DNA from: Desulfobulbaceae bacterium
Lineage (GTDB): Bacteria > Desulfobacterota > Desulfobulbia > Desulfobulbales > Desulfobulbaceae
NCBI GenBank assembly: GCA_012744275.1
Contig: JAAYIE010000042.1
Location: forward strand, 1-64,000
DNA: 64,000 nucleotides
Reading direction: 5' to 3'
The translations under genes and the position numbers were made by a program. Each line of letters starts with the position of its first letter. Positions within the stretch are counted from its first letter, which is position 1. Of this stretch, positions 3,253 to 61,660 are shown piece by piece. The notes beneath the pieces were generated by a model. That model ran no database searches. It saw only the letters and a list, made by a program, of their open reading frames with translations, and was not told the DNA's origin.

Positions 3253-4152
3253 CTATTTTTTTCGCTCCACGATATAGCGGGCCAAAAGGCGGAGAGGGTC
3301 TGCCTTGGCATCAAAATCCTGCAGCGCCTCCAGGGCCGCCACAATAGCGTCCTGCGCCATAACCCGTGATGTTTCCACACCAAAAAGTGCGGGAAATGTC
3401 AATTTACGTGCCCCAACATCCTTGCCAACTGCCTTGCCTAATTCTTCGATAGTGGATTCTAGATCAAGCAGGTCGTCAATAATCTGAAAAGCCAATCCCA
3501 CCTGCTCACCGTAACTGCGCAGGGCCGTAACCTGTACCTCATCTGCCGCAGCAGCAAGGGCACCGGCCTCGATGGAGGCGGTGATTAGTGCTCCGGTCTT
3601 GCTCTGGTGGATGGTGTGCAGCACCTCATAACCAGCCTCTTTGCCTTCATAAATCATGTCGAGCGCTTGACCGCCAACCATACCCTGAGAGCCTGCGGCC
3701 CTGGCAACAATCTGGATAATACGGATGCGGACATGATCGCTCAGCGCCGAGGTAGAAGCGCTGCTGAGCAGGTCAAAGGCGTAGGTAAGCAGGCCATCCC
3801 CAGCCAGGATGGCCGCAGCTTCGCCGTATACCGTGTGATTTGTCGCTTTTCCCCGGCGCAGATCATCGTCATCCATGGCAGGAAGATCATCATGGATGAG
3901 CGAATAGGTATGGATACATTCCAGTGCACAGGCAACAGGCAGGGCGGCGCGACGGGAGTCTTCACTGCCACTGACTGCGCCGGCCGCTGCCAGACAGAGG
4001 ATTGGCCGCAGTCGTTTCCCTCCCGAAAAAAGACTGTAGCGCATGGCTTCAATATGGCGAGCAAAAGGCCCGGCGGCAGACAACATCAGCCCGACAAGGG
4101 CTTGTTCAACCAGTTCCCGCTGTTCATTCAGATAGGTCTTGATTTCCATCAT
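3253..4152 (-). CDS. ispA: Polyprenyl (farnesyl) diphosphate synthase
   Basis: About 299 residues, the usual IspA length. It chains IPP onto DMAPP/GPP to give farnesyl diphosphate. The first aspartate-rich motif is HDDLPAMDDDDLRRGK and the second is FQIIDDLLDLE. GGKRLRP near residue 45 is the conserved IPP-binding Lys/Arg region. The open frame extends upstream to 4269, but the sequence GGAGAGG lies directly before two consecutive ATG codons (4152 and 4149). I take one of these as the start, the second giving the better ribosome-site spacing. It overlaps the 3' end of xseB by about 25-30 bp, which implies translational coupling. Confidence 0.95.
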   Translation of the reverse strand: MMEIKTYLNEQRELVEQALVGLMLSAAGPFARHIEAMRYSLFSGGKRLRPILCLAAAGAVSGSEDSRRAALPVACALECIHTYSLIHDDLPAMDDDDLRRGKATNHTVYGEAAAILAGDGLLTYAFDLLSSASTSALSDHVRIRIIQIVARAAGSQGMVGGQALDMIYEGKEAGYEVLHTIHQSKTGALITASIEAGALAAAADEVQVTALRSYGEQVGLAFQIIDDLLDLESTIEELGKAVGKDVGARKLTFPALFGVETSRVMAQDAIVAALEALQDFDAKADPLRLLARYIVERKK

Positions 4153-4372
4153 CCTCTCCGGCAAAGGGAGTGGCCACAAGTGAGCCGTTGGCACCCAGAA
4201 GCAGCTCAACGCGCCCACGTGCATCCTCAAGAGTGGCGTTACAAAACCTGGCCAGCTCAATCCCTTCACTGAATTTAGCCAAGCTCTTTTCTAGAGTGAG
4301 GTCACCCGCTTCCAGTTCTTCGGTTATCTGCTCCAGCCGGGTCAGGGCGTTTTCAAAAGACTTTTTGGCCAT
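4124..4372 (-). CDS. xseB: Exodeoxyribonuclease VII small subunit
   Basis: An 82-residue helical protein with the XseB signature: FENALTRLEQITEELEAGDLTLEKSLAKFSEG-type heptads, then ARFCNATLEDARGRVE. With XseA it makes exonuclease VII, which degrades single-stranded DNA. The ATG at 4372 is preceded by AGGTGG at good spacing; upstream codons in the frame lack this. The C-terminus overlaps the ispA start. xseB-ispA-dxs is a widely conserved gene order, and no xseA is in this window. Confidence 0.93.
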   Translation of the reverse strand: MAKKSFENALTRLEQITEELEAGDLTLEKSLAKFSEGIELARFCNATLEDARGRVELLLGANGSLVATPFAGEDDGNQDLSE

Positions 4373-4592
4373 TATCCACCTGCATCTATTGGCTATCTCC
4401 ACATCTATTTACAGTGCAGGGTCATCATGCCCGCGCGCACAATATAAATTGTAAAAATAAACATTTGTGTACACTCTTTCAACAATTCTTTCCCGCCGGA
4501 CAGCTGCCTGTCCGGTTCTCAAGTTAAAGGGAGCACCACAAAAGGCCGAAGCTGGATGCAGAACCATCCAAGATTGAGGCTAGCACAAACAC

Positions 4593-9194: not shown

Positions 9195-10153
9195 GATTCA
9201 ATAAAAACATTCGTCATGGAGCCGGACAAAACACCTGTCACCTGTACAAAGAGAAAATATCCGGCAGAAAAAGTGGCAGCGAACTGGGCACATCCCAGCG
9301 GCTATCGCCACTTGGTTGATCAAGTTAGATGCAACAAACTAAGCAACTGGACATGGCGGTTGGTTTATCAAAGCGATGTGGACGAAGATCAGCATATTTA
9401 TGTCGCTTAAATACAAGATGAACATGCTGCCATTGCTACAGCGCGCTCATCTGGAATTAAGGCATCTGGCCGAATTTGATCCGTGGCGGGAGCGCGAAAT
9501 CGAGATACAAGAGATGCGCCAATCTGAACAAACCAGCAGCGCTATTGTCTGTACAATCTGGAACTACTAACAGGTGTATCTGAAGATGCGTGGCAAGGCA
9601 GTAATAATTAATTCCGGCAATATATAGAAAATAGGCTTGGAGGCAAGAAAAATCGGGAATTGAGGGCTATTTTTTTATCAGTGCAGCGCCAGAGAGGACA
9701 GACTGGTGGTATTTCCAGAAGAAAAATTGACCTGGCAATTAATGGCGATGAAATAAGGCAGCGACAATCAACCACCACCAATTTTTGCGGTAAAGCCACG
9801 CTGCTACAGCACGGTTTGCACGAACAAGCGGTAGCCACCCTGAGTTTTTATGGTGCTATCCTGCACCGTGCTCCCGCTGACGTGCATCTTTTTCAACACG
9901 CCAGCACGTTTCTACAACTCTCCCCCTCTACGGTCAAAACGGTAACCACAGGAGCAGCGCACACTTCACGCCCCTTGCTTTTGCTGTTAATACGCGCGGG
10001 ACCATCGTGCCGCCCCGCCTTGGGTCGGATCAGCTCATGACTGCGGCAGATGTAGGCTGTTTTGACCCGCCCGCAATCTTGGCAATCGGTCCTGTTCCAT
10101 GCTATAAACCAAGGTAGATGTGGGGGCGTTCCGTGTTACTTATCCAACCCTGT
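9195..10153. other. Gene-poor region between nhaA and pyrC
   Basis: About 960 bp with no gene I can support. Plus-strand frames of 60-126 residues exist (9216-9410, 9376-9570, 9660-10040). They have no recognisable motif, no convincing ribosome site and overlapping shadows on the other strand. The longest, 9660-10040, would encode a 126-residue protein ending in a Leu-rich stretch; I do not recognise it. The nhaA promoter should lie just above 9194. The region may hold decayed coding sequence or an undetected small RNA. Confidence 0.4.
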
Positions 10154-57927: not shown

Positions 57928-58118
57928 TCAGGCAGACGCATTCCCATTCCATACCATACTAGTGTAAGATGCTCCTTTATGTTGGCCTCACAAAATACTT
58001 ACAGGGCGTGGAGGTGCTATTAAGCTAGCCACGCGATATGCGCCTGACGCCTGTGTCGCGCTCTCCTTTCCGCCTTTGCATCTTTTAATCTGGAACTGGA
58101 ATCGTACCTGCCCAGACA

Positions 58119-58165
58119 CAAAAAACCCGGCCACCACGAATACTGGGGCCGGGTTTCGTTTATTT
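58119..58165. terminator. Bidirectional terminator between ettA and rubrerythrin
   Basis: AAACCCGGCC (58123-58132) pairs with GGCCGGGTTT (58147-58156) around a 14-nt loop. Plus-strand tail TTTCGTTTATTTT follows it; on the minus strand the A-run at 58119-58125 gives T's. It sits between the ends of convergent genes. Confidence 0.88.
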
Positions 58166-58184
58166 TAAATTCATGTTCTGAAGA

Positions 58185-58685
58185 TCAGGCAACAAGCTCA
58201 AAAACAGCCTTCTTAGCGCCGCACACCGGACACTTGTCCGGAGCCTGCCCCAGCTCAATATACCCACAGACCGGACAAAGATAGAAGTCGCTCACATCAA
58301 GATCAACGCCTTTCTTCACAGCCTCAAGTGCTTGCTGGTAAATTTTAGCATGTACCTCTTCTGCATCAACTGCAAACTTGAACATGGTCTTTGCCTTGTG
58401 GCCATCAGCAGTGGCCAAATCCAGCATGGGCGGATACATTTCCGTAAACTCATAGGTCTCGCCGTCAATAGCAGCCTGCAGATTGTCGGCAGTGGAAGCG
58501 ATCATATCCAGTGCCTTGAGATGCCCCTCGGCATGAATACGCTCAGCCTCGGCGGTGGTACGGAACAGTTTGGCGATATTCTTGAAGCCATCCTTCTCCG
58601 CCTTCTTGGCAAAGGCGCGGTATTTCTGGTTGGCTTGGCTCTCTCCAGCAAAAGCTTCCTTCAGGTTGTCTACTGTCGTGGTCAT
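58185..58685 (-). CDS. Rubrerythrin
   Basis: 166 residues. The N-terminal ferritin-like four-helix domain (1-130) has the di-iron ligands in LKEAFAGESQANQKYRAFA, AEAERIHAEGHL and AVDAEEVHAKIYQ (E-x6-Y and E-x2-H patterns). The C-terminal rubredoxin-like domain has YLCPVCGYIELG and PDKCPVCGAKK, four cysteines for one Fe. It reduces hydrogen peroxide in anaerobes. GGAG precedes the ATG. It lies downstream of the rubredoxin-DUF2231 gene on the same strand but has its own promoter candidate. Confidence 0.95.
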   Translation of the reverse strand: MTTTVDNLKEAFAGESQANQKYRAFAKKAEKDGFKNIAKLFRTTAEAERIHAEGHLKALDMIASTADNLQAAIDGETYEFTEMYPPMLDLATADGHKAKTMFKFAVDAEEVHAKIYQQALEAVKKGVDLDVSDFYLCPVCGYIELGQAPDKCPVCGAKKAVFELVA

Positions 58686-58765
58686 TCTATACTCCTTTAA
58701 AAGATTACTGTTTGCTCACCGCACAATGGCGGCAAGTATGTTGTTGCCTTTACAAAACGTTTAAT

Positions 58766-58793
58766 ACTATAGGTCGGTTTTTCGGACTGGCAA
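58766..58793 (-). promoter_or_regulatory. Candidate sigma70 promoter for rubrerythrin
   Basis: On the minus strand TTGCCA (58788-58793), 16 nt, then TATAGT (58766-58771). This would give a leader of about 75 nt before the ATG at 58685. No PerR-like or other operator was recognised. Confidence 0.55.
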
Positions 58794-58862
58794 GCTTTAT
58801 GCGAAAAAAACTACATAATAATAATTACCAGATGCTCACAGGTGTAAGGCTCACCCTGCAAC

Positions 58863-59507
58863 TTAATGTTTCCTTCCAGAAAACACCAGCTTACCGCCCA
58901 AGTGGCCGGCAATACCAACCGCAGCAAGAACGATCAAAGAAAAAAATAAAAACACACCCCGGCCGGAGGCATTTGACTGCCACAAGGAGGGCTGGCCAAA
59001 ACCCCACAGGACAAGCGTGGCCAGCAGTACAGTGGCAACGAGTGAGGCGGCAATCTTGATCTTAAACACGCTGGTTAACGCACCCCGGTAGCGGGTCTTC
59101 CACATGGTATAGCCGGTAAAAAGTACAATCGGCATAGAGAGTAGGACAAAGGTGTAGCTGTAAAGTGCGGCCTTCCCCAGGGTTGGAGAGCCGAACAGCA
59201 CTAGCATCACAATAAAGAATACCGCCATGGGAATGATACCGTTGGGCATGTGCACGGTAATCGGGTGCAGGTGGTGCTTGTCAATCAGGGCCTGAATACC
59301 TTGCAGTGGTACGGGCGCAGGCTTGGCCCCCTGAGCGGCAGCAACTGAGGAGAGCGGTTCTACTTCCGCCTGTGGTGCTGCTGCGGCAGCTGCTTCCTCT
59401 TTCACTTCCACAAACTGGCTTGCATCCGCTCCGCAGAGAGGGCACTCATCAGGCGGCTGGTCGCCTTCATGGATATAGCCGCAGATAGTACATTCCCATT
59501 TTTTCAT
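58863..59507 (-). CDS. Rubredoxin-like domain fused to a DUF2231-like membrane domain
   Basis: 214 residues. The N-terminal rubredoxin-like knuckle pair (WECTICGYIHEGDQPP, then CPLCG) gives Cys6, Cys9, Cys22 and Cys25, as in the rubrerythrin C-terminal domain. An Ala/Glu/Pro-rich linker (35-68) leads to a membrane domain with four helices (about 91-107, 113-133, 148-170, 184-205). The first helix is preceded by HHLHPITVHMPNG, the histidine motif of DUF2231 proteins. AGGAG precedes the ATG. Position before rubrerythrin suggests membrane-linked electron supply to peroxide or oxygen reduction; this is inference. Confidence 0.82.
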   Translation of the reverse strand: MKKWECTICGYIHEGDQPPDECPLCGADASQFVEVKEEAAAAAAPQAEVEPLSSVAAAQGAKPAPVPLQGIQALIDKHHLHPITVHMPNGIIPMAVFFIVMLVLFGSPTLGKAALYSYTFVLLSMPIVLFTGYTMWKTRYRGALTSVFKIKIAASLVATVLLATLVLWGFGQPSLWQSNASGRGVFLFFSLIVLAAVGIAGHLGGKLVFSGRKH

Positions 59508-59974
59508 ACTTTTTCTCCTATTGTATTGATAGCTGCAGTGGGTTTGACAAAAAATATCCTGTTCTCTTCCAGCTCAATGAACGTTCTTTTTATCAGTTCT
59601 TTTTTGTTAAAAGATTTGCATATGATTATATCGTATCGCCTCTTTTATTGCAAAAAAATATCAACTAGGCAGGAAAATAAAACGGAGACAAGGTACCAAA
59701 ACATCGTGCACAGTTTCAGTCAGTACAGTTCTGTCTTGTGGTCCTGCTAAGCTCCGTTTCCTTGGAAGGTCACATACATAAAAAATCCCCTTCACCTCAT
59801 TGAGGTGAAGGGGATTTCTAACCTTAGCACAAGTGGCTTTGGCTTATTGCAGATCCAGCGTAAAGAAGCTCTTCAGGAGGCCAGAGGTAAAGGCAACGCA
59901 GGCATACGTGAAGGTATGTCCTGCGAGCACTTGCCGAGCCGGCACAGGAGAGCCGCTTTAATGTGGAATTAGGA
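59508..59974. other. Region between groEL and the rubredoxin-like gene
   Basis: About 465 bp. It contains the groEL terminator (59779-59817) and should hold the rubredoxin-like gene's promoter just above 59507. The 160 bp between the groEL stop and the terminator carries no supported gene. Confidence 0.5.
59779..59817 (-). terminator. Intrinsic terminator of groESL
   Basis: A perfect 16-bp stem: arms 59783-59798 (AAATCCCCTTCACCTC) and 59802-59817, with a 3-nt loop. On the minus strand the adjoining A-run (59779-59785) gives the T-tail. It lies about 160 bp beyond the groEL stop. Confidence 0.9.

Positions 59975-61660
<1,686 letters not shown>

Follow-up and report, generated by a model that had tools for sequence, protein, structure and literature searches.

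To our knowledge, the in vivo reductant of rubrerythrins in anaerobes is often unknown, and the locus described here raises the question of whether such an enzyme could draw its electrons from the membrane. In the window, by which we mean the whole stretch of 64,000 nucleotides that was analysed from a Desulfobulbaceae genome, a gene joining a rubredoxin to a DUF2231 membrane domain is followed on the same strand by a rubrerythrin gene. The reading that we favour, to which we give a little short of an even chance, is that the fusion is a membrane-tethered rubredoxin loaded from the membrane, with menaquinol as the most likely donor, and that in the window's own clade it feeds rubrerythrin or another peroxidase. 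No established function of DUF2231, and no mention of COG4244, was found in the literature searched, which lay mostly outside subscription journals and preprints. A tethered rubredoxin in itself is a known kind of protein; what is new here is its tethering to a membrane domain that has no assigned role.

The fusion protein and the adjoining rubrerythrin

The open reading frame at 58863–59507 of the minus strand starts with ATG and encodes 214 aa. Its head, residues 4–32 (59412–59498, minus strand), is a rubrerythrin-type rubredoxin knuckle with Cys6, Cys9, Cys22 and Cys25, all four invariant in 23/23 sequences, and it matches the Pfam family RUBY_RBDX (PF21349) at E 5.3e-16, with 58.2 bits against a curated cut-off of 26.5. 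An Ala/Pro-rich linker (about residues 38–70; 59298–59396, minus strand), the least conserved stretch of the protein, leads to the DUF2231 domain (residues 78–211; 58875–59276, minus strand), which is matched by PF09990 at E 9.5e-10 and with 39.1 bits against a curated cut-off of 26.4. The preliminary description had proposed a rubredoxin-like knuckle and a DUF2231 membrane domain beside a rubrerythrin, with an Ala/Pro linker running into four helices, and this arrangement was borne out by Pfam (PF21349 and PF09990, with PF02915 in the neighbour), by the sequence and by an AlphaFold2 model. Since full-length relatives were found in 85/257 genomes of the order, the fusion is not a chance join. 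The protein begins with MKKWECTICG, which leaves no space for a signal sequence N-terminal to the knuckle.

The model, computed from an input of 8 sequences, is of middling confidence (mean pLDDT 69.2). It contains the four helices expected of DUF2231, at residues 80–105, 108–139, 146–171 and 183–209, and pLDDT falls below 50 at residues 39–67, within the linker, and at residues 79–87, where the model is weakest. With Foldseek, no PDB entry matched the model at E 0.001 or better, and VIA-align returned generic helical bundles at up to Z 14.2 as well as cytochrome oxidase subunits at Z about 11–12, a likeness that may reflect just a common helix arrangement. When PDB sequences were searched with a profile, the matches to 54 of them, some receptor–rubredoxin chimeras included, were confined to the rubredoxin head, and the closest solved relatives of the head were rubrerythrin tails and also rubredoxins; apart from the head matches, two chains of the NdhE type came up at E about 0.7.

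The rubrerythrin gene (58185–58685, minus strand; 166 aa) lies downstream of the fusion on the same strand, after a gap of 177 bp. Its product is matched by PF02915 at E 7.7e-25 and by PF21349 at E 1.4e-11, and it carries both the diiron motifs (ERIH at 48 and EEVH at 109) and a knuckle of its own (CPVC at 137 and 152). Its nearest relatives in the PDB are 3mps/1nnq (E 1.2e-46), which we take to be the rubrerythrin of Pyrococcus furiosus, as against E 1.7e-24 for 1b71/1ryt, presumably that of D. vulgaris. The P. furiosus enzyme is said, in the title of a paper, to be rubredoxin-dependent.

Conservation, orientation and partners of DUF2231

An alignment was made of 134 DUF2231 domains, of which 89 are fused to rubredoxin, 32 to cytochrome b5 and one to cytochrome c, and 12 have no recognised partner; it omits L151, L160 and L164, and L074 gave no match. 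H81, G132 and W136 occur in 134/134 of these domains, H86 in 133/134, K151 in 132/134 and Y140 in 123/134, in a set that was drawn with a fusion-family profile and so leans to H81 and H86, as members lacking either could escape it. His79, His81 and His86, for which the preliminary description had given the correct numbering, sit in KHHLHPITVHMPNG, and the motif HxHPxxxHxPNG occupies residues 79–90 (59238–59273, minus strand). H79 is present in 84/89 rubredoxin fusions, in 32/32 cytochrome b5 fusions and in 2/12 domains without a partner. The proposal made beforehand had depended on these histidines being conserved in homologues, which they are. A fourth histidine, His202, which the preliminary description had passed over along with the tandem knuckles and the other fusions of DUF2231, is on TM4 (codon at 58902–58904, minus strand) and is found in 74/89 rubredoxin fusions, 0/32 cytochrome b5 fusions and 9/12 domains without a partner. 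Since H202 is the sole conserved histidine on another helix and is absent from all the cytochrome b5 fusions, a heme bridged between two helices (TM1 and TM4) by histidine ligands appears less likely on alignment grounds. On the periplasmic side, no second conserved histidine was found among the tabulated alignment positions.

The charges of the loops give a signal of orientation. Lysine and arginine average 4.4 in loop 2 of the 89 rubredoxin fusions, compared with 0.3 in loop 1 and 0.9 in loop 3, and in 29 cytochrome b5 rows the corresponding means are 3.7 for loop 2 against 0.6 and 0.6. By the positive-inside rule, the charge of loop 2 thus places both termini in the cytoplasm. With this topology and the helix limits of the model, the residues H79–G90 (opening TM1), W136 and Y140 (closing TM2), K151 (opening TM3) and H202 (closing TM4) would all lie on the cytoplasmic side, and the rubredoxin head would share that side with the conserved end of DUF2231. 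We infer that H79, H81, H86, W136, Y140 and K151 may meet in space as one site.

The fusion is found in full or nearly full length in 25/73 genomes of the Desulfobulbaceae, the family of the analysed genome. In the phylum sample, at least 24/394 genomes have one match (E 1e-15 or better) that spans head and membrane domain, a count that leaves out G443, which has an internal stop, and fusions such as L157, L167 and L184, which matched there by a single domain. Named carriers are Desulfobulbus rhabdoformis (L004; Desulfobulbaceae, Desulfobulbales, Thermodesulfobacteriota) and Desulfogranum japonicum (L009). Six plasmid records and one viral contig also gave matches, each to the head only. By motif count, the 89 rubredoxin fusions carry one knuckle in 59 cases, two in 23 and three in 7.

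DUF2231 occurs with other carriers as well. In L161 a cytochrome b5-like domain lies N-terminal to it (PF00173, E 5e-7, above the cut-off); the cytochrome b5 class of 32 rows was otherwise assigned mostly by motif, Pfam bearing on two rows only, this one and L163, whose PF00173 match falls below the cut-off, and L179, L180 and L201 (the last a contig-edge fragment) were moved into it by hand from the class without a partner. In L188 (G346) a cytochrome c domain lies C-terminal to DUF2231. A cytochrome c would be expected in the periplasm, and this form may be inserted in the membrane the opposite way round, its loop charges leaving the matter undecided. In a tree of the membrane domain, which has many rows and few columns, the cytochrome b5 forms group together in a single clade (99/95), and rubredoxin was gained or lost at least three times, with a main clade of 84 rows (99/98) and five rows elsewhere. 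Since DUF2231 is joined to several one-electron carriers, it is most simply read as a redox module; the redox role that the preliminary description had given to the membrane domain is thus supported by its fusions to cytochrome b5 and cytochrome c elsewhere. The cytochrome b5 fusions resemble the rubredoxin fusions in having an N-terminal one-electron carrier on the same membrane domain, with the HxHP motif in 32/32, and differ in having a heme-type head instead of rubredoxin, no His202 and a separate place in the tree. Standalone DUF2231 proteins have the same four-helix domain, with H81 in 12/12, H86 in 11/12, W136 in 12/12 and K151 in 12/12, and are set apart by the lack of a recognised soluble carrier and by H79 in just two of the 12. 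The analysed genome itself encodes a second, standalone DUF2231 protein (G000:C21:92611-92982; L001, L159), HHPLHPAMTHLP, which has no histidine at 202; its gene adjoins a cation efflux-like gene, named by eye.

Peroxide-defence genes and their control

The window falls in a tree sub-clade of 25 rows (100/99), whose other members are 17 rows from the same family and 7 from genus g26, which belongs to another family. Peroxide-defence genes lie within 5 kb at 23/25 loci of this clade, counted without the window itself and with L074, included by kinship, compared with 3/67 other loci, a set in which five (L150, L151, L158, L160 and L164) are standalone forms or poorly read; Fisher's p is 2.5e-16, kinship being uncorrected, and short contigs restrict some of the neighbourhoods. 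The genes near the clade loci are for rubrerythrin in 20 cases, Fur-family regulators in 7, catalase in 3, KatG in 1 and peroxiredoxin in 1, and at the remaining two loci, L082 and L093, there are none within 5 kb. Gene order is, for example, regulator–rubrerythrin–fusion in L086, regulator–catalase–rubrerythrin–fusion in L100, and fusion–regulator–rubrerythrin–fusion–peroxiredoxin–KatG in L094. Outside the clade, all three loci owe their place to a rubrerythrin-type gene at this distance; L139, one of the three, itself served along with the clade loci to seed the neighbourhood search. At 3/67, rubrerythrin cannot be the general partner of the fusion, and a general link was rejected. The co-occurrence of fusion and rubrerythrin that had been predicted therefore holds within one clade and fails as a general rule: the link is real but clade-specific.

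Within the clade, two rubrerythrin subtypes, 34–39% identical, are found on opposite sides of the fusion, one downstream of it in the window's family and the other upstream of it in three g26 loci; 6/7 loci of g26 have at least one gene for rubrerythrin, a Fur-family regulator, catalase, KatG or peroxiredoxin. Among the 73 genomes of the family, the fusion occurs together with the window's rubrerythrin subtype (82% identity or more) in 22 and without it in 3, the subtype occurs without the fusion in 3, and 45 have neither. The two genes are adjacent on the same strand in 20/22 of these genomes, lie 40 kb apart in G023 and cannot be placed relative to each other in G026 owing to a contig edge. 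The gene upstream varies (GroEL in the window, GpsA/gyrase in L014, kinase-like in L009 and L028, all named by eye), and the pair stays together.

A promoter scan of 58000–60000 found 8 sites, compared with 1.8 expected by shuffling. One promoter-like site lies ahead of the fusion (59625–59654, minus strand) and another between fusion and rubrerythrin (58766–58793, minus strand), and no terminator-like site was detected by the scan in the 177-bp gap. The two genes may thus be transcribed together, separately or both, and the rubrerythrin gene perhaps has a promoter of its own. The nearby regulators are assigned to the Fur family by Pfam, and it is by neighbourhood only that they would be identified as PerR. 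In the passages seen of PMC545781, PerR–rubrerythrin operons of delta-proteobacteria are listed and no rubredoxin–DUF2231 fusion appears. A PerR-type matrix built from two sites printed there matched, at a mononucleotide-shuffle p of 0.05 or less, 8/15 upstream regions of rubrerythrin genes, 2/3 of regulator genes and 3/35 of fusion genes. In the window, a weak PerR-box-like 19-mer precedes the rubrerythrin gene (58811–58829, minus strand; shuffle p 0.01), and upstream of the fusion no convincing PerR site was found (shuffle p 0.8). No palindrome common to the upstream regions stood out. With matches in 3/35 fusion upstream regions, we do not claim direct control of the fusion by PerR.

Several other genes near the fusions deserve mention. 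A peroxiredoxin gene beside the fusion in L035 (721–1377, minus strand) has one in-frame TGA at the apparent peroxidatic position (FTFV-U-AT) and gives a full AhpC/TSA match when the TGA is read as selenocysteine, making the product a candidate selenoprotein; a peroxiredoxin gene that may be of the same kind adjoins the fusion in L094, where its C-terminal part lies at 9354–9752. In L139, which comes from a distant relative, positions 3967–4428, 1.6 kb from the fusion, encode a ferritin-like protein of 153 aa that belongs to the rubrerythrin family (PF02915) and has no knuckle of its own. Many fusions of family f6 (among L090–L136) adjoin genes for an ABC-F-like ATPase, a CBS-domain protein and an indolepyruvate oxidoreductase-like protein, named by eye, with no peroxide genes; the ABC-F-like ATPase cluster covers 26 loci, and 27/30 of its genes are from f6.

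Electron source and alternative readings

Taken together with the topology, these results suggest the following scheme. The conserved site of DUF2231 (His79, His81, His86, Trp136, Tyr140 and Lys151), lying where the membrane meets the cytoplasm, would be supplied with electrons by a donor in the membrane, menaquinol being the most likely one. It would pass them singly to the flexibly tethered rubredoxin head, which in the window's clade would hand them to the adjacent cytosolic rubrerythrin or to another peroxidase, resulting in the reduction of hydrogen peroxide. That the knuckle holds iron, that electrons flow in this direction, that they reach rubrerythrin and that they come from menaquinol is what we infer. 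The two or three knuckles of some relatives would, speculatively, suit a two-electron donor. Knuckles of the rubrerythrin type have potentials above +200 mV and menaquinone is at about −75 mV, so that menaquinol fits as donor, the knuckle potential being well above that of menaquinone. A wider reading, possible but doubtful, would make DUF2231 a minimal membrane oxidoreductase with exchangeable heads, that is, a four-helix socket that would tap menaquinol on the cytoplasmic side of the membrane and charge one-electron carriers (cytochrome b5, one to three knuckles of the rubrerythrin-type rubredoxin and perhaps cytochrome c), which in this clade would give the respiratory chain a route to cytosolic peroxide reduction bypassing NADH:rubredoxin oxidoreductase. 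If the scheme is true, DUF2231 gains a role and these sulfate reducers would have their oxygen tolerance coupled to the respiratory chain; as the membrane rubredoxin is conserved and lies beside rubrerythrin and Fur-family genes, the question of the rubrerythrin donor can be tested directly in cultured Desulfobulbales.

In the known chain from NADH:rubredoxin oxidoreductase through rubredoxin to rubrerythrin, rubredoxin likewise precedes rubrerythrin as its donor; the fusion differs in that its proposed donor is in the membrane and that PF18267, the C-terminal domain of the NADH:rubredoxin reductase, had no match in the analysed genome, which is scored 100% complete and 3% contaminated. All the controls (E. 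coli, B. subtilis, T. maritima and H. volcanii) were matched in the same search. Reductases of other kinds may be present. PF18267 was found in 0/26 genomes of the sub-clade, compared with 74/257 in the order, its absence being nested in three genera. At E 1e-12 or better it occurs in 44/257 genomes, 3 of which also have the fusion (p 1.5e-5 by genome), and depending on the cut-off 3 to 11 of the 257 genomes have both; at the level of genera, 23 have the fusion, 20 have PF18267 and 4 have both (p 0.17, not significant). The avoidance is thus strong by genome but not by genus, and we place little weight on it. In genus g14 of the window's family, PF18267 was seen in G066–G069 and the fusion in G072, none having both.

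The C-terminal rubredoxin domain of rubrerythrin (PF21349) has the same knuckle type and spacing as the fusion head; in the fusion, the knuckle is instead N-terminal, single or in tandem, and attached to a membrane domain and not to a diiron bundle. RubA consists of a rubredoxin and a single C-terminal membrane helix, with no other membrane domain. The fusion is of a different type, as DUF2231 follows its head, with four helices and conserved residues, and peroxide genes lie nearby. According to PMC3772215, RubA is a membrane-bound rubredoxin of oxygenic phototrophs, likewise tied to the membrane, and serves photosystem II.

This comparison invites the view that DUF2231 is a mere anchor, with a soluble reductase loading the rubredoxin and the conserved residues being structural, which we consider unlikely. 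A membrane-bound rubredoxin required for photosystem II is known (PMC3772215), the linker is long and unordered in the model, and the four other rubredoxins encoded in the genome mean that soluble donors exist; but an anchor has no need for H81, H86, G132 and W136 in 133–134 of 134 rows, nor any need to recur with cytochrome b5 and cytochrome c. It seems quite improbable that the histidine-rich site binds heme or another metal and acts as a cytochrome-like relay from a donor other than quinol, possibly on the periplasmic side. Histidine is the usual ligand of heme or metal, and H79, H81 and H86 are conserved in the carrier-fused forms, yet these histidines are on one helix end, H202 is missing from the cytochrome b5 fusions, the tabulated positions hold no further conserved periplasmic-side histidine and, as weak evidence, the fold comparison singled out no heme protein of known structure.

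The tethered-donor reading itself has to accommodate the facts that the rubrerythrin holds a rubredoxin domain of its own and that the genome has those four other rubredoxins. Four-Cys knuckles often hold zinc, in which case the head would have a docking or structural role and no redox function, but its closeness to rubrerythrin tails and rubredoxins makes this extremely improbable. Finally, the knuckle or the membrane site might read the state of peroxide or quinone and signal to a partner. Fur-family genes near 7/25 clade loci and a PAS domain after DUF2231 in one relative (L167) are in keeping with such a sensor, which is nevertheless very unlikely for the window protein, as it has no output domain and its nearest neighbours are electron-consuming enzymes. 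In L167, DUF2231 lies between the rubredoxin and the PAS domain, and the frame ends soon after the latter; the same rubredoxin–DUF2231–PAS make-up was seen in L210 (G595), and fusions of this kind may be membrane redox sensors.
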